A DNA stretch of 64,000 nucleotides from the NCBI RefSeq assembly GCF_002266435.3, contig NZ_CP029426.2:4928001-4992000 (forward strand). Direction: 5' to 3'. Shown in pieces: positions 26,395-35,166 of this stretch. The position numbers were made by a program, and so were the translations under genes. Numbering within the stretch: position 1 is the stretch's first letter; the number at the start of each line of letters is the position of its first letter. The notes under the pieces are model-generated. The model saw only the letters and a list, made by a program, of their open reading frames with translations, was not told the origin of the DNA and ran no database searches. The DNA comes from Bradyrhizobium amphicarpaeae. Its GTDB lineage: Bacteria > Pseudomonadota > Alphaproteobacteria > Rhizobiales > Xanthobacteraceae.

Positions 26395-27483
26395 ATGAAT
26401 GCAGATTCGCAATTTAGTGAAGACGCCGATCCGGACGACACGCGCCCGATCCTGATCATTCCCTACATGTGGATCGGCGATTTCGTCCGGAATCACACCG
26501 TGGTGCGGGTCCTGAAAGAGCGCTGGCCCAACCGGCCGGTCGATCTGCTCACCACATCCCTCTGCGCTCCGCTGGTCGATTACATGCCCGGCGTGCGCGA
26601 GGGCATCGTCTGGGACCTGCCGCGTGGCCGCCTCGCCGTCGCCCGCCAGCTCGCCTTGGGGAAGCTGCTGCGCGAGCGGAACTACGGCACGGCCCTGGTG
26701 CTACCCCGGACCTGGAAGGCGGCCATAGCACCGGCGCTGGCCGGTATTCCTGAACGGGTCGGCTTCGTCGGCGAATTCCGGTTCGGCCTGCTCAACCGCT
26801 GGCGCTGGGGCGAGAAGAAGCTGCCCCGCTTCATCGACAAGAACGCCGCCCTGGCCCAGCCCGATGGCGCGCCCCTGCCTCCGGAATGGCCGGTGCCGCA
26901 ATTGCGGGTCCCGGCCGAGGACATCGTCCGCTGGCGACAGGCCAACGGCCTCAGCGCCGGCGCCGCGGTGGCGCTGGCACCCGGCTCGGTCGGCGTGTCG
27001 AAGCGCTGGACCGGCTACCCCGAGGCCGCCCGGCTGCTGGTCGAGCGCGGGCTCGAAGTCTGGGTGGTCGGCGGCCCCGGCGAAAAGGGCCTCGCCCAGG
27101 AGATCGTCGCCGCGGGCGGTCCGGGGATCCGCGATCTCACCGGCACCGATTTGCGCAACGGCGTGCTGGCGATGGCCGCCGCCGGTGTCGCCATCTCCAA
27201 CGATTCCGGCCTGATGCACATCGCGGCCGCACTGGGCACGCCCACCATGGGCATCTTCGGCCCGACCAGCCCCTATCTCTGGGCCCCCCTCAACGGCCTC
27301 GCCGCGACCGTGGTCCAGGACAAGGAAAAGCTGTCCTGCCAGCCCTGCCAGAGCACGATCTGCAAGATCAACGACCACCGCTGCATGCGGAATATCGCCG
27401 CGAGCGAGGTGGTGGGGATTGCTCAGACAGTCTTGGCGGAGTCACGCGTCACGGGCCGGGACATCGAGCACGGACAGTCCTGA
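26395..27483 (+). CDS. waaF: LPS heptosyltransferase II (WaaF)
   Basis: A 362-residue glycosyltransferase family 9 enzyme that adds the second heptose to the LPS core, using ADP-heptose. Characteristic sequences are IPYMWIGDFV near the start, APGSVGVSKRW and GYPEAARLL in the centre, GTDLRNG, and the ADP-heptose binding segment SNDSGLMHIAAALGTP followed by GIFGPTSPY. A late CxxC...C pattern (SCQPCQSTICKINDHRC) is common in WaaF. The start at 26395 has only a weak ribosome-binding site. It ends at a strong terminator shared with the convergent fasciclin gene. Confidence 0.92.
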   Translation: MNADSQFSEDADPDDTRPILIIPYMWIGDFVRNHTVVRVLKERWPNRPVDLLTTSLCAPLVDYMPGVREGIVWDLPRGRLAVARQLALGKLLRERNYGTALVLPRTWKAAIAPALAGIPERVGFVGEFRFGLLNRWRWGEKKLPRFIDKNAALAQPDGAPLPPEWPVPQLRVPAEDIVRWRQANGLSAGAAVALAPGSVGVSKRWTGYPEAARLLVERGLEVWVVGGPGEKGLAQEIVAAGGPGIRDLTGTDLRNGVLAMAAAGVAISNDSGLMHIAAALGTPTMGIFGPTSPYLWAPLNGLAATVVQDKEKLSCQPCQSTICKINDHRCMRNIAASEVVGIAQTVLAESRVTGRDIEHGQS

Positions 27484-27494
27484 CCCAAATCGCA

Positions 27495-27531
27495 CCGGAG
27501 ACCACCCTGCGTCGGCACGGGTGGTCTCCGG
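27495..27531. terminator. Bidirectional terminator hairpin
   Basis: A perfect 13-bp stem (27495-27507 with 27519-27531) and an 11-base loop lie between the convergent waaF and fasciclin genes. There is no long T-run. Confidence 0.75.
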
Positions 27532-27538
27532 TCGATCG

Positions 27539-28042
27539 TCAGTGATGCGTCTTGCCGCGCGCCGGAGGCAGCAGCACGGTGTCGATGACGTGGATCACGC
27601 CGTTCGACGCCTCGATGTCCGGCTGGATGACATGCGCGTCGTTGACCGTCACGCCGAAGCTGCCGTCGACGCTCACCGGCTGGCCCTGGACGGTCGCGAC
27701 CTTGAGCGACTTGCCGGCCACGTCAGCCGCCTTCACGCGGCCCGGAATGACGTGATATTTGAGCACAGCGCGCAGCTTGGCCTTGTTCTTGAGCAGCGAC
27801 TCGACGGTGCCCGGCGGCAGCTTGGCGAAAGCCGCATCGTTCGGCGCGAACACCGTGAACGGACCCTTGCCCTTCAGCGTAGGTACGAGGCCGGCGGCCT
27901 TGACGGCGGTGACGAGTGTCGTGAACTGCCCAGCGGAGACCGCGGTGTCCACGATGTCGGCGGCGCGTGCCATCGAGGGGCCGAGCAGACCAGCGACCAA
28001 GGCGGCTCCAGCCACGAACGAACGAATTGCGGGCGTCATCAT
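27539..28042 (-). CDS. Secreted fasciclin-domain protein
   Basis: A 167-residue protein with a signal peptide ending around residue 27 (PSMARA). The remainder is one fasciclin (FAS1) domain with both conserved boxes: H1-like [17 protein letters not shown] and H2-like [14 protein letters not shown], and the YHVIPG motif between them. FAS1 proteins mediate adhesion or ligand binding outside the cytoplasm; in rhizobia such proteins have been linked to symbiosis, but no function can be assigned here. The ATG at 28042 (MMTP) has GGAG in front. The 219 bp upstream contain no convincing gene. Confidence 0.92.
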
Positions 28043-28261
28043 TTTCTCCGAGTTGCTGTGATCTTGTTTCCACCGATGTGACGGATGCGCACGAAATCCA
28101 CCTTGCGATCCGATGCGATCGACGTTGACGAAACGGAGCCTCGCGACCGCTGGATCACCTGCCTGTTGGAAAATCCTGCGGCGCAGTGCCGCGCTCGATC
28201 AACGCGACAGTGAACAACGAGCGATGCGCGCTCGTGGATCACCGCGCTCCCGGAGGACGCG

Positions 28262-29119
28262 TCAGCTCAGGGTCTTGATTACGAACTCCTTGAGGCGTTG
28301 CGCCGGCCGGGGGAGACGGTCGCGCTCCAGGATCGCGATCTCGGTATCCTTCAGGTCGGGCATCGGCTTTCCGTCCACGACATGCAGATCGGGCGGGACC
28401 ATGTCCTTCGGAAGCACCGTCACGCCAAGCCGGGCGCGCACGGCCGCCAGCGTTCCCGCCAGCGAACCGCAGGTGTAGGCGACGCGCCAGGACCTTTTGG
28501 CGCGATCGAGCGCCTCGGTGGCCCGCTTCCTGTAGACACACGGCTTGGGCGACACGGCGAGAGGTAAAACGCCCTGCCTGAGATCGAGCCCGCCCGTCAC
28601 CCAGACCAGAGGCTCACGCCAGACACGGATGCCGGGGATTTCGATGGATCGCTCACGCTTGATCAGAGCGAGGTCGAACGCGCCCTTCCTGAAGCGCTCG
28701 ATCAGATTCATCGTCAGATCGCAGGTGACCTCGAGGTCGACCTGCGGATAGGCCTGGGCGAAACGCGAGAGCACGTCGGGAAGATGGCGGGTCGCGAAAT
28801 CCTCGGGGGCCCCGAGCCGGACCAGCCCGCGCATCGCCGGCTCCTGGATGCGCGAGACCATCTCGTCGTTCAGATCGAGCATGCGCCGCGCATAGTCGAA
28901 GAACGTCTCGCCTTCCGCGGTCAACGCAACCGATTGCGGCGATCGCTCCAGCAGCTTGCTGCCGATCTGCTCTTCCAGCCGGCGGATTTGCAGCGAGATC
29001 GTGGATTGCTGCACGCCGAGCCCCTGCGCGGCGCGTGTGAAGTTTCCGAGCGATACGATGGCGACGAAGGACCTGACCAGGTCGATGTCCAGATTGACGC
29101 GCGTGCGTGGCATCATCAT
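28262..29119 (-). CDS. LysR-family transcriptional regulator, divergent from sbtA-like gene
   Basis: A 285-residue LysR regulator. The winged helix-turn-helix (about 10-68) contains VSLGNFTRAAQGLGVQQSTISLQIRRLEEQ. The C-terminal periplasmic-binding-protein-like effector domain spans about 90-285. Three consecutive ATG codons (29119, 29116, 29113) follow GAGAAAGG; the last has the best spacing, so the true start may be 29113. The 96-bp intergenic region shared with the bicarbonate-transporter-like gene is AT-rich (about 29128-29157), the usual place for a LysR operator. It therefore probably controls sbtA-sbtB, by analogy with CcmR/CmpR in cyanobacteria. The inducer is unknown. Confidence 0.88.
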   Translation of the reverse strand: MMMPRTRVNLDIDLVRSFVAIVSLGNFTRAAQGLGVQQSTISLQIRRLEEQIGSKLLERSPQSVALTAEGETFFDYARRMLDLNDEMVSRIQEPAMRGLVRLGAPEDFATRHLPDVLSRFAQAYPQVDLEVTCDLTMNLIERFRKGAFDLALIKRERSIEIPGIRVWREPLVWVTGGLDLRQGVLPLAVSPKPCVYRKRATEALDRAKRSWRVAYTCGSLAGTLAAVRARLGVTVLPKDMVPPDLHVVDGKPMPDLKDTEIAILERDRLPRPAQRLKEFVIKTLS

Positions 29120-29127
29120 TGCCTTTC

Positions 29128-29157
29128 TCAATGATGATATTCAATACAATCAATTTC
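29128..29157. promoter_or_regulatory. Candidate LysR operator/promoter region
   Basis: An AT-rich block with imperfect dyad sequence TTCAATACAATCAAT (29140-29154) lies in the gap between the divergent LysR gene and the sbtA-like gene. It stands out from the GC-rich surroundings. No base-by-base LysR consensus can be claimed. Confidence 0.4.
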
Positions 29158-29215
29158 GACAAAGGCCAGCCGAAAGCTATCAGGGCGCTGTTGAACAAAC
29201 ACGTCAGGGGGTCCC

Positions 29216-30187
29216 GTGCTTGCGCTTGCCGTCCAGAACCTTGTCTCTCCTCCCGTGCTCTTCTTCGGAATGGGCCTCGGGGCTTCGCTCGGCCGGTCCG
29301 ACCTGTCCGTGCCCGAGGCGATCGCACGCTTCCTCTCGCTCTATCTCCTGATCTCGATCGGCTTCCGGGGCGGCGCCGAGGTCGCCCACCAGGGGCTGAC
29401 GCTGACGCTGGTGGCAACGATCGCGGCCGGAATCGCCTTGTCCGGCGGCTTGCCGTTCCTCGCCTACGCCTTCCTGCGCACTATCGCAGGCCTCGACCAC
29501 GTCAATGCGGCGGCGGTGGCCGGACATTACGGCTCGATCTCGGCCGTGACCTTCGTCGCCGTCACCGGCGCCCTGACCCAGCTCGGGCTGCCGTTTGACG
29601 GCTACATGATCGCCGTTGCGGCTGCGATGGAGACGCCGGCGATCTTCTCCGCGCTGTTCATCGCGCACGCAGGGCGAGGCCGGGCCGAGGGAGAGATGCC
29701 AAAGGATTTCCTGCGGGAGATCGCGCTCAACGGCTCGATCGTGGCCCTGCTCGGCGCGTTCGCAGTCGGCTGCGTCACGGGCGAACGCGGCATGACCTCG
29801 CTCAAGCCTTTCCTGCTCGACGCGTTCGCGGGATTTCTCTGCATCTTCCTGCTCGACATGGGTCTGCTCGCCGGCCGGGGGCTGCGGGACGGCTGGCGGT
29901 CGCTGTCCGTCCCGGTCGCTGCCTTTGCCTGGGTCATGCCGCTCGTCGGCGCCGCGCTGGCGGCGGCCCTGGCGTGGCTGATCGGATTGCAGGCCGGCAG
30001 CACGGCGGTGCTGATGACGCTCGGCGCCTCCGCCTCCTACATCGCCGTGCCGGCCGCGATGCGGCTGGCGCTGCCCGCAGCCAATCCCGCGATCGCGCTC
30101 ACGCTCTCGCTCGGTCTGACGTTTCCGTTCAACCTCACGGTCGGCATCCCCCTGTACATCGCCGCCGCACAGATCATCGCACAATGA
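29216..30187 (+). CDS. Sodium-dependent bicarbonate transport family permease (SbtA-like)
   Basis: A 323-residue inner-membrane protein with about ten hydrophobic helices in two halves, matching the SbtA family (DUF897). The first-half signature GHYGSISAVTF is at 103-113 and the second-half counterpart ASYIAVPAAMR is near 280. Cyanobacterial SbtA imports bicarbonate with sodium and feeds the CO2-concentrating mechanism. It is about 370 residues long; this protein is shorter, mainly in the cytosolic linker between halves (around 160-180). GTG start at 29216 after AGGGGG. The next gene encodes an SbtB-like partner 7 bp downstream. Bicarbonate as substrate is inferred from family and context. 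Confidence 0.85.
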   Translation: MLALAVQNLVSPPVLFFGMGLGASLGRSDLSVPEAIARFLSLYLLISIGFRGGAEVAHQGLTLTLVATIAAGIALSGGLPFLAYAFLRTIAGLDHVNAAAVAGHYGSISAVTFVAVTGALTQLGLPFDGYMIAVAAAMETPAIFSALFIAHAGRGRAEGEMPKDFLREIALNGSIVALLGAFAVGCVTGERGMTSLKPFLLDAFAGFLCIFLLDMGLLAGRGLRDGWRSLSVPVAAFAWVMPLVGAALAAALAWLIGLQAGSTAVLMTLGASASYIAVPAAMRLALPAANPAIALTLSLGLTFPFNLTVGIPLYIAAAQIIAQ

Positions 30188-30194
30188 GGACAGC

Positions 30195-30506
30195 ATGCAG
30201 ATGTTTGCCAAGAAGCGCGTCGAGATCCTGATCGAGCGGGCTCTGCTGAAGCGACTGACGGATGAACTGGTGCGCACCGGCGTCAGCGGATTTTCCGTCG
30301 TGCCCCTCGCCGCGGGACGCGGCCAGGCCGGACAATGGGATTCGGACGGCCAGATCGGAGACGCCGCCGGCATGTACGCACTGTGGTGCATCGTCGATCC
30401 CGGCCGCCTCGACGGCCTGCTGGAGGCTGTCTTCGCGATCGTCTCCCGGCAGGTGGGACTGGTCTCAGTCAGCGACGTGGAGGTGGTGCGGCCGGAGCGG
30501 TTCTGA
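30195..30506 (+). CDS. PII-like protein (SbtB-like)
   Basis: A 103-residue protein with the ferredoxin-like beta-alpha-beta pattern of PII superfamily proteins: KRVEILIERALLKRLTDEL at the start, a T-loop region around 40-60, and LVSVSDVEVVRPERF at the end. Its place directly after an SbtA-like transporter indicates SbtB, which binds adenyl nucleotides including cAMP and gates SbtA. The C-terminal CGPEGC redox extension found in many cyanobacterial SbtB proteins is absent. It forms an operon with the permease. The 176 bp after it show no gene or clear terminator. Confidence 0.8.
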   Translation: MQMFAKKRVEILIERALLKRLTDELVRTGVSGFSVVPLAAGRGQAGQWDSDGQIGDAAGMYALWCIVDPGRLDGLLEAVFAIVSRQVGLVSVSDVEVVRPERF

Positions 30507-30682
30507 GCGGGATGTGCCGTTAGAGCAGAAATGAGTCAGCTTGATCCAAAAGTGGGTCGGAAGATCGTCGCGCTGCCGACGGTCGCTTACGTTGAATGCC
30601 CGGTTCTGTTCGAGAGTCGACCTCGAGCCGAAGTCGCATTTTGTCCCAAAGCGGAAGAACGATGGAAGACCAGACTACGAAG

Positions 30683-31633
30683 CTAAAAATACTGGCGTCG
30701 TAAGCGCGTCGCAGAAGGCAATTCTCCGAATGCAGATTTGTAGCTTACCGAGAATTCGCCCATGTGCCAGAAGCCATTAGCCATGGCAATGTTCGTTACG
30801 GTCGCAGCCGGAGGACCGAATTGCAGCTGTTTTCGGACCTCCCAAAGTCGCTTACTGCGAATGTAGTGGTGTAAGTTGACGCCGTGCATCGTTCGGACTG
30901 CGGTTTGCAGTGTGCGCACCGAGACATGCAGTCGTAGCGCAAGATCGTCGCTGTATAATGGTGAGTGCTTGAGTAATGAAATATGCTCATCAAGCTCTGC
31001 CACTAATTTGCGATACGTTTCAAACTTGCCTCGCCGTCCTATAGACGTTCCTTCACGCGGCATCAGAGCGGCGTCGAGGCAAGCGTAGAGCGACTCACGT
31101 AGACTACCTTGCAACAGACCAAAGTCCGTCGCGTCGTTACAAGTCGACGCGGAACAAAAAATATCTAGAATTGATGCCTTAAGTCGGTTCATGACCGGTC
31201 GAGCCGGCCTTATAAGCGACAGCCCTTTACCACTATCCAGCCAGCCGCGGTGACTCATATCGGAATCAAAACGGAGCATTAAATAAGTGTTCGGATGTTC
31301 TTCGACCGCTTCAGTCTCAACTCGACCCCGCAGCACCGCGATAGTTGAATTGTCGAGCGTTGCCTTGTTGGCAATCGAGTGAAAGGCTATGGGGATGACG
31401 AGGCCCACTCCCTCATCCGTACCCATGTTTGTTTGAAGGCGTCTCGCAAAGGATCGCTGAAGAACGAGTAAGCTGCCTTGTAGAGGCAGGACGGCACGGT
31501 GAGCCGAAAAGTTTGATGGATCGGTAGGCTTGCTGATGCCGCCTCCGATCACCTCGTTAGGACGGAATTGCTCGAAATCGACGAACGACTCCGTGCTAAG
31601 AAAGCGAGAAGGTTTCAGCCAACGAACGGGCAT
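30683..31633 (-). CDS. AraC-family transcriptional regulator (AT-rich region)
   Basis: A 316-residue regulator. The C-terminal AraC DNA-binding domain (about 215-316) has two helix-turn-helix units: LHVSVRTLQTAVRTMHGVNL and the second around VTNIAMANGFWHMGEFSVSYK, followed by FGELPSATRLRR. The N-terminal 200 residues resemble the substrate-binding part of AraC-type regulators such as those of the OruR/FeaR kind but the effector cannot be named. Base composition is clearly lower in GC than neighbouring genes, and rare codons such as ATA and TTA are frequent, so the gene was probably acquired by transfer. No target gene is obvious; the nearest neighbour in that stretch is the M20 amidohydrolase. 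Confidence 0.85.
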   Translation of the reverse strand: MPVRWLKPSRFLSTESFVDFEQFRPNEVIGGGISKPTDPSNFSAHRAVLPLQGSLLVLQRSFARRLQTNMGTDEGVGLVIPIAFHSIANKATLDNSTIAVLRGRVETEAVEEHPNTYLMLRFDSDMSHRGWLDSGKGLSLIRPARPVMNRLKASILDIFCSASTCNDATDFGLLQGSLRESLYACLDAALMPREGTSIGRRGKFETYRKLVAELDEHISLLKHSPLYSDDLALRLHVSVRTLQTAVRTMHGVNLHHYIRSKRLWEVRKQLQFGPPAATVTNIAMANGFWHMGEFSVSYKSAFGELPSATRLRRQYF

Positions 31634-32064
31634 ATTGGTCTCAGGTTGATGCGAAGTCGTGTCCGAGCCAAATTCTAAGCTGCTGTAATACGTAAAGACG
31701 TCGCCAACGCATCATTCACGATGCGTCATAAAGCTACGGCTATGTGGTTGCTAAAAAGTTTGTCCCGCCAACGCCAGGGATGCTCAAATTCTGCCATGGC
31801 CTTTCAAAGGTCCAAGCCGATGGATTGCCTAAATCCGATAGCTAAATTTCTGGTGGCCATTTTAAATCCAACAGGTGGGTCCGATTTTGATACCGCCCTT
31901 TGGTCCGTCGGCGAAGTGGTACCATCGCTCCACGAAGTCGGCTTATTAAGACGACCCCCTCATGTCGGCTTGTGGCCCGTTGCTGACCAATCACGGCATG
32001 GTCAGCGATGGCAGCATTTGACGCTATTGGGACATTGGGTTGCAATGGCTGTCATGCCGGTTGC
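31634..32064. other. Non-coding AT-rich stretch with repeat-like debris
   Basis: These 431 bp lie between the AraC gene and the amidohydrolase. Reading frames exist but lack family resemblance, ribosome-binding sites and codon bias. On the plus strand the text around 31935-31990 (two short similar phrases containing GTCGGCTT) looks like decayed copies of a short repeat. I see no intact transposase. Confidence 0.5.
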
Positions 32065-33636
32065 TCACGTTTCAGAGCTAACCTCGCTAAGGATTTCATC
32101 CCCAGTATCCTTCGTCAGCCGGTCGGGAATGCCCGGAGGCTGTTTGATCTCTGGCGGAATTGGCGAGACGTATTTGTAGTCACCTCGGCGGCGCACCAGA
32201 TCTTCCTTCGCCGCTTTGCGCAAATCGGCGTTGGTCATTAGATCGTGCCCAATGCCTGCCATGATCTTCGCCGACGCAATGGATGCCTTGTCGCCGATGG
32301 ACATCCCGCCGCATGCCGTTACACCCCACGTGTGCAAGGCGACGCCGAGCGGAAGCGTTGGCCAGCCGAAGACCGACAATGGCGTGTTGAAGCTGACGTC
32401 GCCGCAATCCGATCCGCCCCCCGTCGTCTTTTCGCCGATTGTTGGGGCGACAGCCGTGGCCAATCCTTTTTCCGGCAACGTCATTTCTTTCTGAATAGTT
32501 TTAGCAAACGTCTGCTCTGCGTCTGTCCATTCTATCGGCGTCGCCTTCATGTGCCGATGTGTTAGCGCAATGAGTGTATCGTTCGGAAGGATCTGGTGAA
32601 CGCCGGTGAACACTTGGAATTCCGCTCTGGTCTGGGTCATCTGAGCCGCACCTTCGGCGATGCCCTTCGCCCACTCAGTGAGCTTCACCACGTTCTGGCG
32701 ATTCTTGTCCCGAATCGTGAGGAGCATTTGTGCAAAATCCGGCACGATGTTCGGAGAGAGGCCAGCCTTTTCGTAAACGTAATGCATGCGAACGGTCGGC
32801 TCCACATGCTCGCGCATAAATTGTATGCCAATGCCGAATAGTTCCGCCGCTTTCAGTGCGCTGCGCCCTTGCCACGGTTCCACGCCCGCATGCGCAGTTC
32901 TGCCAAAGAACTTGATGTGAATGCCATTATTCGCAGCGGTAGAGACGGCGCCTGTGACTGCAACTGGGGCTGGATGCCATGACAAGGCGGCATCGACATC
33001 GTCAAAGAGCCCATCTCGCGCAAAATAGGCTTTTACCGCCCCGCCTTCCTCGGCGGCACAGCCAAAGACCAAGATAGTGCCGGGCGTTTTGTCCTGCTCC
33101 ATCATTTTCTTGAGCGCTATAGCGGCGCCCGTGCACCCGGCTCCCAGCATATTGTGTCCGCAGCCATGCCCGACCTCAAAGCCGGTCGGCCCGGGCGTCT
33201 TGCGCGGTTCTGCCGCGTTGCCGAGGCCGGGGAGGGCATCATACTCAGGAAGGAACCCGATCTTGGGACCTGCCGATCCCTGTTTCCATTCCCCGAGAAA
33301 TGCGGTTGGGATATTTGACGTACCGGTAGTCACCTTGAAGCCAGCGGCCTTCAGCTCTCTCACGTGAATTGCCGACGATTTTTCCTCTACAAAAAGGCCC
33401 TCGGCGTTCGTCCAAACCTCGCGGGAAATACGCAGAATGATGTCGCGCGTGCTCTCCACGGCTGTTGCAGCATTAGCTGCAGAAGGAGGAGGAGCAGCCG
33501 CTGCGGTTGCTACAGGTGCCGCCTGCGCCAGCACCGGTCCGACCGAGCCGATGCTGCTTGCTCCGATGCCAACCGCACCAGTTGCGAGAAATGTTCTGCG
33601 ATCAACGCCGGCCTTGTCATTTTTATTGCCAGCCAT
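32065..33636 (-). CDS. Tat-exported M20-family amidohydrolase (AbgB-like)
   Basis: A 523-residue zinc peptidase/amidohydrolase. The N-terminus has a twin-arginine signal (DRRTFLATG, Arg13-Arg14, then a hydrophobic stretch and VLAQA), so the folded enzyme is likely exported. The M20 catalytic landmarks are LPEYDALPGLGNA, HGCGHNMLGAG, CAAEEGGAVKAYFARDGLFD and the dimerisation-domain GRTAHAGVEPW; near the end GGGSDCGDVS. It is closest to the AbgB (p-aminobenzoyl-glutamate utilisation) and amidohydrolase group. The natural substrate is unknown. The ATG at 33636 follows GGGAGGC; composition is less GC-rich than the surrounding genes. Confidence 0.88.
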   Translation of the reverse strand: MAGNKNDKAGVDRRTFLATGAVGIGASSIGSVGPVLAQAAPVATAAAAPPPSAANAATAVESTRDIILRISREVWTNAEGLFVEEKSSAIHVRELKAAGFKVTTGTSNIPTAFLGEWKQGSAGPKIGFLPEYDALPGLGNAAEPRKTPGPTGFEVGHGCGHNMLGAGCTGAAIALKKMMEQDKTPGTILVFGCAAEEGGAVKAYFARDGLFDDVDAALSWHPAPVAVTGAVSTAANNGIHIKFFGRTAHAGVEPWQGRSALKAAELFGIGIQFMREHVEPTVRMHYVYEKAGLSPNIVPDFAQMLLTIRDKNRQNVVKLTEWAKGIAEGAAQMTQTRAEFQVFTGVHQILPNDTLIALTHRHMKATPIEWTDAEQTFAKTIQKEMTLPEKGLATAVAPTIGEKTTGGGSDCGDVSFNTPLSVFGWPTLPLGVALHTWGVTACGGMSIGDKASIASAKIMAGIGHDLMTNADLRKAAKEDLVRRRGDYKYVSPIPPEIKQPPGIPDRLTKDTGDEILSEVSSET

Positions 33637-33987
33637 TTTTGCCTCCCAAGGGCATGCATGCCTCTGAGGCACAATTTTCAGACTAACCCATTTAACTCAA
33701 GGATGATTGATCCATCTCAACAAGCGCCTTTCGTTCGATCACCTCAAGGTGGTCTCTACCGACGCTCGACGTCTCCGTTTGGCCCTTCTCGGACTCGTGG
33801 CTCCAGCGGAATGTCCGGTTCAGGCATAAAACTGCCGCCCCTCCGGTACTCGAAATTCAAGAGTCTCGGATGCTCGGGGCCCGCGGTTGATGAAAATCTG
33901 ACTTCAAACCCGCTCAATGGGCCGGCTTGAAAGCAATAACGCTCCGATCTCCCCGGACCCGCAATTCGCCTTGAGGCACGCGGCGCA
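33637..33987. other. Intergenic region with possible gene remnant
   Basis: No complete gene is visible. On the minus strand 33756-33935 reads through as FQAGPLSGFEV...PRLLNFEYRRGG...ERR with coding-like composition and no start of its own, so it may be the tail of a decayed gene. The rest is the promoter side of the amidohydrolase. Confidence 0.35.
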
Positions 33988-34764
33988 TCATGCCGCCGTC
34001 GGATCGCCGCGCCGCCGGTAGATCTGGAGATAGTTGGTATTGCACGAGCGGGTCGTATGCCAGCGCATGGTGATCGGAGCGAGCTCCAGGCCGCAGGTCT
34101 CGATGACGGAGAAGCCGAGCGGAGCAAGTGTGCTCGCGATCTCGTCCGGCCGCATGAAGCGCCGCCAGTCGTGCGTGCCGCGGGGCAGCCAGCCCAGAAC
34201 GTATTCCGCCCCGATGATCGCCTTCACGAACGACACCAGCGTGCGGTTCAACGTGCCGATCACCAGCAGCCCGCCGGGCGCAACCAGGCTGCCGGTCGCG
34301 GCGAGGAAGCAATCGGTGTCGGCGACGTGCTCGACGACTTCGAGCGACAAGACGATATCGAACTGCCGCCGTTCGGCGACCAGCTCCTCGGGAACGGCCT
34401 GCCGGTAGCCGATGGGCAAACCGGCCTGGTCCGCATGGACGGTCGCCACGCGGACGTTCCGCTCGGCAGCGTCGATGCCGAGGACAAGCGCGCCGAGACG
34501 CGCCATCGGCTCCGTCACCACACCCGCGCCGCAACCGACATCGAGCAGGGTCAATCCGTCGAGGGGCCGCTCCAGCCTGATGTCACGCACCATCAGCGCA
34601 GGTAGCCGCTTGCGGAGATGCGCGACGCGCGCCGCATTGAAGCTGTGAATTAGCTTCATGCGGCCATCGGGATTCCACCAATCCTCGGCGAGGGCCTCGA
34701 ACCGCGCGATCTCGTCGGGATCCACGGTCGGCGGAAGACCGGTCTTCATGTCCTTGCGCAGCAT
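33988..34764 (-). CDS. UbiG-like class I SAM-dependent methyltransferase
   Basis: A 258-residue cytosolic methyltransferase. The N-terminus (DPDEIARFEALAEDWWNPDGRMKLIHSFNAAR) is the signature of UbiG, the ubiquinone O-methyltransferase. Motif I is LLDVGCGAGVVTEPMA (73-88), followed by GIDAAERN. The C-terminus diverges from canonical UbiG (no VNYxLxA ending; it reads TNYLQIYRRRGD), so it may be a paralogue with another substrate while the true ubiG lies elsewhere. It is 2 bp downstream of a DUF2256 mini-gene, and the two form an operon. Confidence 0.8.
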   Translation of the reverse strand: MLRKDMKTGLPPTVDPDEIARFEALAEDWWNPDGRMKLIHSFNAARVAHLRKRLPALMVRDIRLERPLDGLTLLDVGCGAGVVTEPMARLGALVLGIDAAERNVRVATVHADQAGLPIGYRQAVPEELVAERRQFDIVLSLEVVEHVADTDCFLAATGSLVAPGGLLVIGTLNRTLVSFVKAIIGAEYVLGWLPRGTHDWRRFMRPDEIASTLAPLGFSVIETCGLELAPITMRWHTTRSCNTNYLQIYRRRGDPTAA

Positions 34765-34766
34765 GG

Positions 34767-34931
34767 TCAACCTTCCTGGCGCGCGGCTCTTCGCCCGTCG
34801 CCTCGACACCGTTCGGAACAGAATTTCACGCTTGGCCAATCCCGCGACCATTTTCGCCGCCAAGCGAACGGCCGCTTGCAAGCGGCGCATATTTTGGTCG
34901 GAAGGTCCGATTTGCGTCGCATCTTCGGCAT
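34767..34931 (-). CDS. DUF2256 zinc-binding mini-protein
   Basis: A 54-residue protein starting MPKMRRKSDLP. It has the complete DUF2256 pattern: ICAACKRPFAWRRKW with a CxxC pair, then WPSVKFCSERCRG with a second CxxxC pair, giving four cysteines suited to one zinc ion. Function of the family is unknown. Its stop lies 2 bp before the methyltransferase ATG, so it leads that operon. In many bacteria DUF2256 genes stand near photolyase/cryptochrome-related genes, but none is in this window. A longer in-frame reading is possible, but only the last 54 codons show family similarity. Confidence 0.85.
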   Translation of the reverse strand: MPKMRRKSDLPTKICAACKRPFAWRRKWSRDWPSVKFCSERCRGDGRRAARQEG

Positions 34932-35166
34932 GGAGGCTTGCCCGGAGAGAAAAAGACCCGTCAGGGCGGCTGGTGCCCGCAGCCAGCGTGGGTACCCGCA
35001 CGGATCGAGACCTTCTCTCCCTGAACGACTCTGAACGGCTTCTGGATCATGACGCGTGGCCCTTCGCCGCGCCACCTGTGATCCGAATCCGGCTTGCGAT
35101 CGTTTCCTACACCGTGGCGACGCTCATCGTGCAGGAAGATCAGATCAACCGGCGCGCCAAAGGCAG

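Follow-up and report, generated by a model that had tools for sequence, protein, structure and literature searches.

The subject of this report is a putative bicarbonate uptake module in the bacterium Bradyrhizobium amphicarpaeae, in which a permease gene of the SbtA family (sbtA) is followed by a gene for a PII-like protein and faced by a divergent LysR gene. The module lies in the window, a stretch of 64,000 nucleotides (contig NZ_CP029426.2, positions 4,928,001 to 4,992,000) of a genome assembled as 1 contig of 7.03 Mb. One point of comparison is the PII-like protein CPII of Thiomonas intermedia K12 (PDB 5d4l-5d4p, 5drk, 5ds7), which is reportedly associated with the carboxysome, going by the title of the work of Wheatley of 2016; the PDB titles of 5d4o and 5d4p give ADP, AMP and bicarbonate as its ligands. 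The other is the Synechocystis pair Slr1512/Slr1513, in which a PII-like gene likewise comes after that of a Sbt_1 permease. In the SbtA-SbtB structure the T-loop of SbtB enters the exit cleft of the permease, HCO3- was docked on Ser114, Tyr140, Ser324 and Ser327 of Slr1512, and changing these residues to alanine, one by one, left about 10-40% of transport each (PMC8352866). Transporters of this family in autotrophic Proteobacteria have also been published. Sbt and Sbt-CS of the Pseudomonadota species Thiomicrospira pelophila, one of which is near a carboxysome locus, rescue E. coli lacking carbonic anhydrase and accumulate inorganic carbon in it (PMC12628692).

The permease and its PII-like partner

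The three genes of the module are arranged as follows.

29216..30187, + strand: permease gene, SbtA family (Sbt_1, PF05982), GTG start, 323 amino acids
30195..30506, + strand: PII-like gene, 103 amino acids, CPII-type permease partner
28262..29113, - strand: LysR gene, LrhA-like, divergent from sbtA, with HTH_1 and LysR_substrate domains (Pfam)

An earlier, sequence-only reading of this DNA had recognized an SbtA-family permease with a PII-like gene 7 bp behind it, and both identifications hold. The permease matches Pfam Sbt_1 over its full length (positions 1-308 of 308) with 340.8 bits, the cut-off being 27 bits, and an open reading frame of 103 codons with a P-II domain (46.1 bits) begins 7 bp past its stop. 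The sole relative of the permease found in the PDB by sequence (E up to 1) is SbtA 7cye, which is Slr1512 (E 3e-16), with about 30% identity over the aligned pieces; the sequence itself is of the Pseudomonadota type (HYGSISAVTF ... SASYIAVPAAMR). The linker joining the two aligned halves has 21 residues, as against 65 in Slr1512. It is thus shorter, as had been read, but a cyanobacterial SbtA of 335 amino acids from a Pseudanabaena plasmid has a linker about as short (lengths judged by eye), so that shortness marks no departure from the cyanobacterial type and was dropped as a special feature. The Pseudanabaena protein carries SSSDISGPP and has a gene behind it that looks like sbtB by eye.

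The PII-like protein is nearer to CPII than to SbtB, both by profile score (59.5 bits for CPII, 35.3 bits for SbtB) and by comparison of its predicted fold (Z 14.2 for CPII, Z 12.2 for SbtB). A single PII-like protein from another sbtA locus, used as a control, gave the opposite order in the sequence scores. Thiomonas CPII is matched over its full length, with 28-31% identity in the structural rows. That the protein is instead an SbtB orthologue acting through cAMP/AMP, as in cyanobacteria, is therefore quite improbable given the lead of CPII on both measures and the reverse order of the control; we rejected this orthology, leaving a shared fold only. Of the SbtA/SbtB-like uptake module that had been proposed, bicarbonate uptake with a PII-type partner remains the best reading of the sequence, while the SbtB identity of the partner does not. 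The C-terminal R-loop (CGPxGC) or CGPEGC tail is absent, the protein ending in PERF and having no R-loop cysteines. The absence had been noticed correctly but is no anomaly, because the R-loop is not universal in SbtB and Cyanobium SbtB also lacks it, as described in PMC10991534.

Parts of known kinds are found here outside the carboxysome setting from which this type of sensor was described, in a family that is widespread and whose permeases are already annotated, many as sodium-dependent bicarbonate transport family permease; some of the partners are annotated as P-II family nitrogen regulator. The closest named locus in a search of a contig collection is that of Bradyrhizobium japonicum SZCCT0148 (86%), and a PII-like protein of B. 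guangzhouense is 91% identical to that of the window. A predicted protein of 443 amino acids on one contig (P0019) is a Sbt_1 permease (77% identical) joined in frame to a PII-like domain, and may be a natural fusion or the result of a lost stop.

The surroundings had been described as non-photosynthetic-looking, which the genome contradicts. It contains two adjacent Photo_RC matches (C1:5476544-5478230), and one RuBisCO large-subunit gene with a small-subunit gene, adjoining a CbbR-like gene for which CbbR is the best NCBIfam model at a score below the cut-off. The idea of a non-photosynthetic host was rejected on the reaction-centre and RuBisCO genes. Two beta-carbonic anhydrases are encoded in the genome, and the BMC shell domain has zero matches in it, so that the association with carboxysome genes reported for Thiomonas CPII is not found in this host. 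By gene content, the host is a phototroph with a Calvin cycle and without carboxysomes.

Bicarbonate as the probable substrate and its possible uses

The module is probably a Na+/bicarbonate uptake system, with a CPII-type sensor as its gate and the LysR protein as its switch. Bicarbonate is preferred as the substrate because of family membership and because related permease genes have carbonic anhydrase, cbb and carboxysome genes as neighbours. The sequence evidence consists of the gene identities, the nearness of the partner to CPII, a conserved operator-like dyad, and the links to carbonic anhydrase, cbb genes and one carboxysome locus in relatives. In the proposed mechanism, the permease would import HCO3- together with Na+ (from its family, the gene neighbourhoods and the behaviour of T. 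pelophila Sbt in E. coli), and the CPII-type protein would dock on its cytosolic face and slow or plug transport, as suggested by the SbtA-SbtB structure and the gene pairing. By analogy with CPII and SbtB, the PII-like protein would respond to adenylates and bicarbonate, and the LrhA-like LysR protein would switch transcription from the dyad at 29113-29137 on some signal, which the divergent layout and the dyad suggest. When CO2 is low, imported HCO3- would reach RuBisCO via carbonic anhydrase, and would also feed carboxylases that use HCO3-.

The neighbourhoods were surveyed in the best 80 named loci out of 573 confirmed stretches. The PII-like gene adjoins the permease gene in 70 of them. 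Flanks of up to 6 kb were fetched and searched with a beta-carbonic anhydrase probe (itself one of the homologues, and confirmed as Pro_CA by Pfam), giving a homologue in 33 of the 80 loci, 18 upstream and 15 downstream; in 32 of these 33 it lies within 1 kb of the permease/PII-like pair. On plasmids of Cereibacter azotoformans and C. sphaeroides (NZ_CP089967.1, CP031752.1; two were viewed of three listed), a LysR gene and form I RuBisCO genes (form as annotated) come after the permease gene, the LysR protein being CbbR-like in the one tested. Cereibacter is a phototrophic genus. Its permease is 56% identical to that of the window and a LysR-type gene is likewise divergent from it, but no PII-like gene is annotated beside it, CbbR-like and RuBisCO genes come next, and the divergent regulator is annotated as a hydrogen peroxide-inducible genes activator, unlike the LrhA-like protein of the window. 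One genome (G478, L156:7305-11472) has a permease gene of the Pseudomonadota type in a carboxysome locus: three BMC shell genes are about 2 kb away, ferritin-like and ParA-like genes (both named by eye) belong to the locus, and two RuBisCO-large genes follow at a greater distance. A relation of T. pelophila Sbt to the window type by way of this carboxysomal locus is a guess from analogy; in a homology search for T. pelophila Sbt, the 120 matches listed of 8000 included Gallionellaceae, Sulfurimicrobium and Thiothrix by name and no Thiomicrospira, most matches being nameless.

Several findings weigh against this reading, beginning with the substrate site, which was compared in 126 distinct Pseudomonadota permease sequences. 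The equivalents of Ser114 and Ser324 are invariant in this set and kept in the window permease. Ser327 is replaced by Ala and Asp325 by Tyr in 126/126, while the place of Tyr140 is taken by Ala (101), Leu (12), Met (6), Val (4), Thr (2) or Gly (1). The window permease has Ala135 for Tyr140 and Ala277 for Ser327, and so retains two of the four residues of the cyanobacterial-type HCO3- site. Two docked residues and Asp325 are thus replaced in every sequence, so the changed site is characteristic of the Pseudomonadota branch as sampled and is not peculiar to the window; the carboxysomal G478 permease, in which Leu stands in for Tyr140, belongs to the same set. Moreover, an SbtA-like protein of a cyanobacterium, with 24% identity, seems unable to compensate for SbtA (PMC11890772). 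Both points would suit a diverged Sbt_1 carrier of another small anion, such as an organic acid, whose PII-like partner ties uptake to the energy state. We consider such a carrier unlikely, in view of the carbonic anhydrase homologues, the cbb and carboxysome neighbourhoods in relatives, and the published transport by T. pelophila Sbt.

Other findings concern the use of the bicarbonate. Among 398 genomes sampled from the phylum, 55 have a Sbt_1 match over the cut-off, of which 54 were analysed, the window's own being left out. Only 9/54 have RuBisCO-large over the cut-off (10/54 with any match), and 1/54 has BMC genes. As most sampled carriers lack RuBisCO, a CO2-concentrating mechanism cannot be the default reading of the module. 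In Bradyrhizobium, where 18 of 265 sampled genomes have a Sbt_1 match over the cut-off (19 sbtA loci), RuBisCO does not track carriage (14/18 carriers, 241/265 genomes), and a search of the fetched module flanks gave no carbonic anhydrase. The cbb genes of the host are 3 Mb away from its module. The PII-like protein of the carboxysomal G478 locus is of another group, fits the window-type profile poorly (E 1.5e-8) and looks like SbtB by eye.

Bicarbonate might serve anaplerosis or biosynthesis and not CO2 fixation, the proximity to cbb genes being incidental. This explanation overlaps with the preferred one except in the use made of the bicarbonate, and we give it a substantial chance, somewhat short of even. 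In carriers without RuBisCO, the supply of HCO3--dependent carboxylases alone would suffice. The scarcity of RuBisCO and BMC genes among sampled carriers favours it, as do the SBT permeases of two SAR11 IIIa and six LD12 genomes (PMC10030771) and the account, in PMC9894237, of inorganic-carbon transport effects without carboxysomes through a nutritional need for HCO3-. It is opposed by the recurrence, in Bradyrhizobium and Cereibacter, of modules close to genes for RuBisCO and CbbR-like regulators, and by an enrichment of reaction-centre genes among carriers in the genus, the module being carried by 8/27 genomes with these genes vs 10/238 without (Fisher 9e-5, uncorrected for kinship).

The LysR regulator and the intergenic region

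The sequence-only reading had also placed a facing LysR gene beside an AT-rich region, as is borne out by the two LysR domains and by an AT content of 53.9% at 29114-29215, where the window as a whole has 35.7%; 0.17% of 60-bp windows are at least as AT-rich as 29114-29173. The LysR protein is LrhA-like by sequence but not LrhA proper. LrhA is ranked first among NCBIfam models at 150.8 bits, far below the model's own 530-bit cut-off for full-length members, and the best PDB match is LrhA 7yhj (E 1e-38, residues 9-267). The CbbR model NF045990 is not among the 25 families listed, of 57, for this protein. The same model ranks first for the CbbR-like proteins of three Bradyrhizobium genomes (G057, G000, G177) and of Cereibacter, all below its 450-bit cut-off, and a CbbR-type regulator was rejected on these grounds, in a comparison made with CbbR and not directly with CcmR or CmpR. 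The open reading frame opens at TTG 29131; an ATG between 29119 and 29113 is the likelier start, the ATG that ends at 29111 being kept in 14/16 aligned rows.

Two elements lie in or beside the intergenic region, which was aligned across 16 loci (15 of the genus including the window, and L005).

29113..29137, no strand: candidate LysR operator dyad, TCATCATTG-N7-CAATGATGA, axis 29125
29149..29156, no strand: ATCAATTT box, near-invariant, between the dyad and sbtA

About the axis at 29125, 81% of 112 column-pair cells are complementary across the 16 loci, compared with 59% for the next-best axis and a mean of 26% (standard deviation 11%) over 382 axes. Among 5000 simple shuffles of the 71-bp core, 150 contained inverted repeats whose arms were 7 long with a spacer of 3-12, the real arms being 9 long. 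The dyad contains T-N11-A, which we take to be the LysR motif. Its left arm overlaps the likely start codons of the LysR gene, and some of its conservation may come from this overlap. All 8 letters of ATCAATTT are kept in 15/16 aligned regions, and this box is possibly a second LysR contact site. No RNA family reached the gathering score in the scanned interval 27000-31000.

On the other side of the LysR gene lies a gene that could be its target.

27539..28042, - strand: fasciclin-domain gene (PF02469, 142 bits), beyond the LysR gene on the far side from sbtA

Control of this gene or of others by the LysR protein, and not of sbtA, is very unlikely. A homologous LysR gene faces sbtA in 15/19 genus loci and in L003, L005, L006 and L007 (L003 being the same contig as one of the 19), and also where the fetched stretch has no fasciclin gene (G094, G225, G247).

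LysR and PII-like genes are distributed unevenly among the best 80 loci. A divergent LysR gene lies within 700 bp of the permease gene in 12 of them, 4 of the window's type and 8 of another. Each of the 10 loci that lack a PII-like gene has such a divergent LysR gene, and 68/68 loci without a divergent LysR gene have a PII-like gene; the two loci L003 and L005 have both, as does the window. From these gene arrangements, the pattern suggests that one layer of control is traded for the other, with few lineages behind the count. Plasmid-borne sbtA with divergent LysR-type genes was also seen in Tritonibacter and Maritalea (L200, L201), the Maritalea one beside repABC.

Movement within Bradyrhizobium and significance

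Within the genus, the PII-like gene adjoins the permease gene in 17/19 loci. In three genomes (G057, G149, G123) the module and cbbR share a contig, 6-11 kb apart, and in G177 a CbbR-like gene is 2.7 kb from the module. G060 and G128 probably have it at the same cbb site, because their module contigs and cbb contigs break off at adjacent points when set against the order in G057, and so probably does G153, whose flank is shared. Thus 4/18 carriers have the module no more than 11 kb from a cbbR gene as observed, with 3 further probable cases. In G000, G012 and G022 it lies instead between a heptosyltransferase-family gene (26395-27483 in the window) and a methyltransferase gene (33988-35001 in the window), and the cbb flanks of these genomes are without it. 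Judged by gene order, the module has left the cbb site in the window genome. The fasciclin gene adjoins it in 11/11 window-type genomes of the genus, even at differing sites. Given the different sites and the cbb flanks without the module, the fasciclin, LysR, sbtA and PII-like genes have moved as one unit. ARAGORN found zero tRNAs in the window, and hence no tRNA-anchored insertion was seen.

Some further observations concern individual genomes. In the cbb flank of the window genome (L174:12476-13993), 1.5 kb of other sequence stands where G057, G149 and G123 have the module. Beyond the PII-like gene, and before the methyltransferase gene, the window has AraC-type and M20-type genes with weak codon bias (30683-33672); G012 and G022, with the module at the same site, have other genes there. 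G228 has two distinct sbtA loci (L083, L101), one with a PII-like gene and without a window-type LysR gene in the fetched stretch, the other with a co-directional LysR gene and without a PII-like gene. The window-type locus of G153 (L097/L118) has LysR and sbtA genes with no PII-like match behind them.

In the open-access literature searched, we found no report of CPII in Alphaproteobacteria without carboxysomes, of CPII-type partners clustering with carbonic anhydrase, or of the alternation of LysR and PII-like genes. We tentatively propose a wider picture, in which our confidence falls slightly below the halfway mark: CPII-type proteins may not be carboxysome parts in the main, but may usually gate a bicarbonate symporter in Alphaproteobacteria that lack carboxysomes and mostly RuBisCO, often clustered with beta-carbonic anhydrase; some lineages may swap CPII-type control for a divergent LysR; and the clade of the window may have both, in a unit moved from the cbb operon. 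The Pseudomonadota permeases with their changed site offer a clean test case for bicarbonate carriage, and the loci allow control by PII and control by LysR to be compared as they occur in nature. If the proposal is true, a PII protein that binds bicarbonate, known from work on a single carboxysome bacterium, would have a far wider role, and the supply of inorganic carbon would be actively managed in bacteria without carboxysomes.

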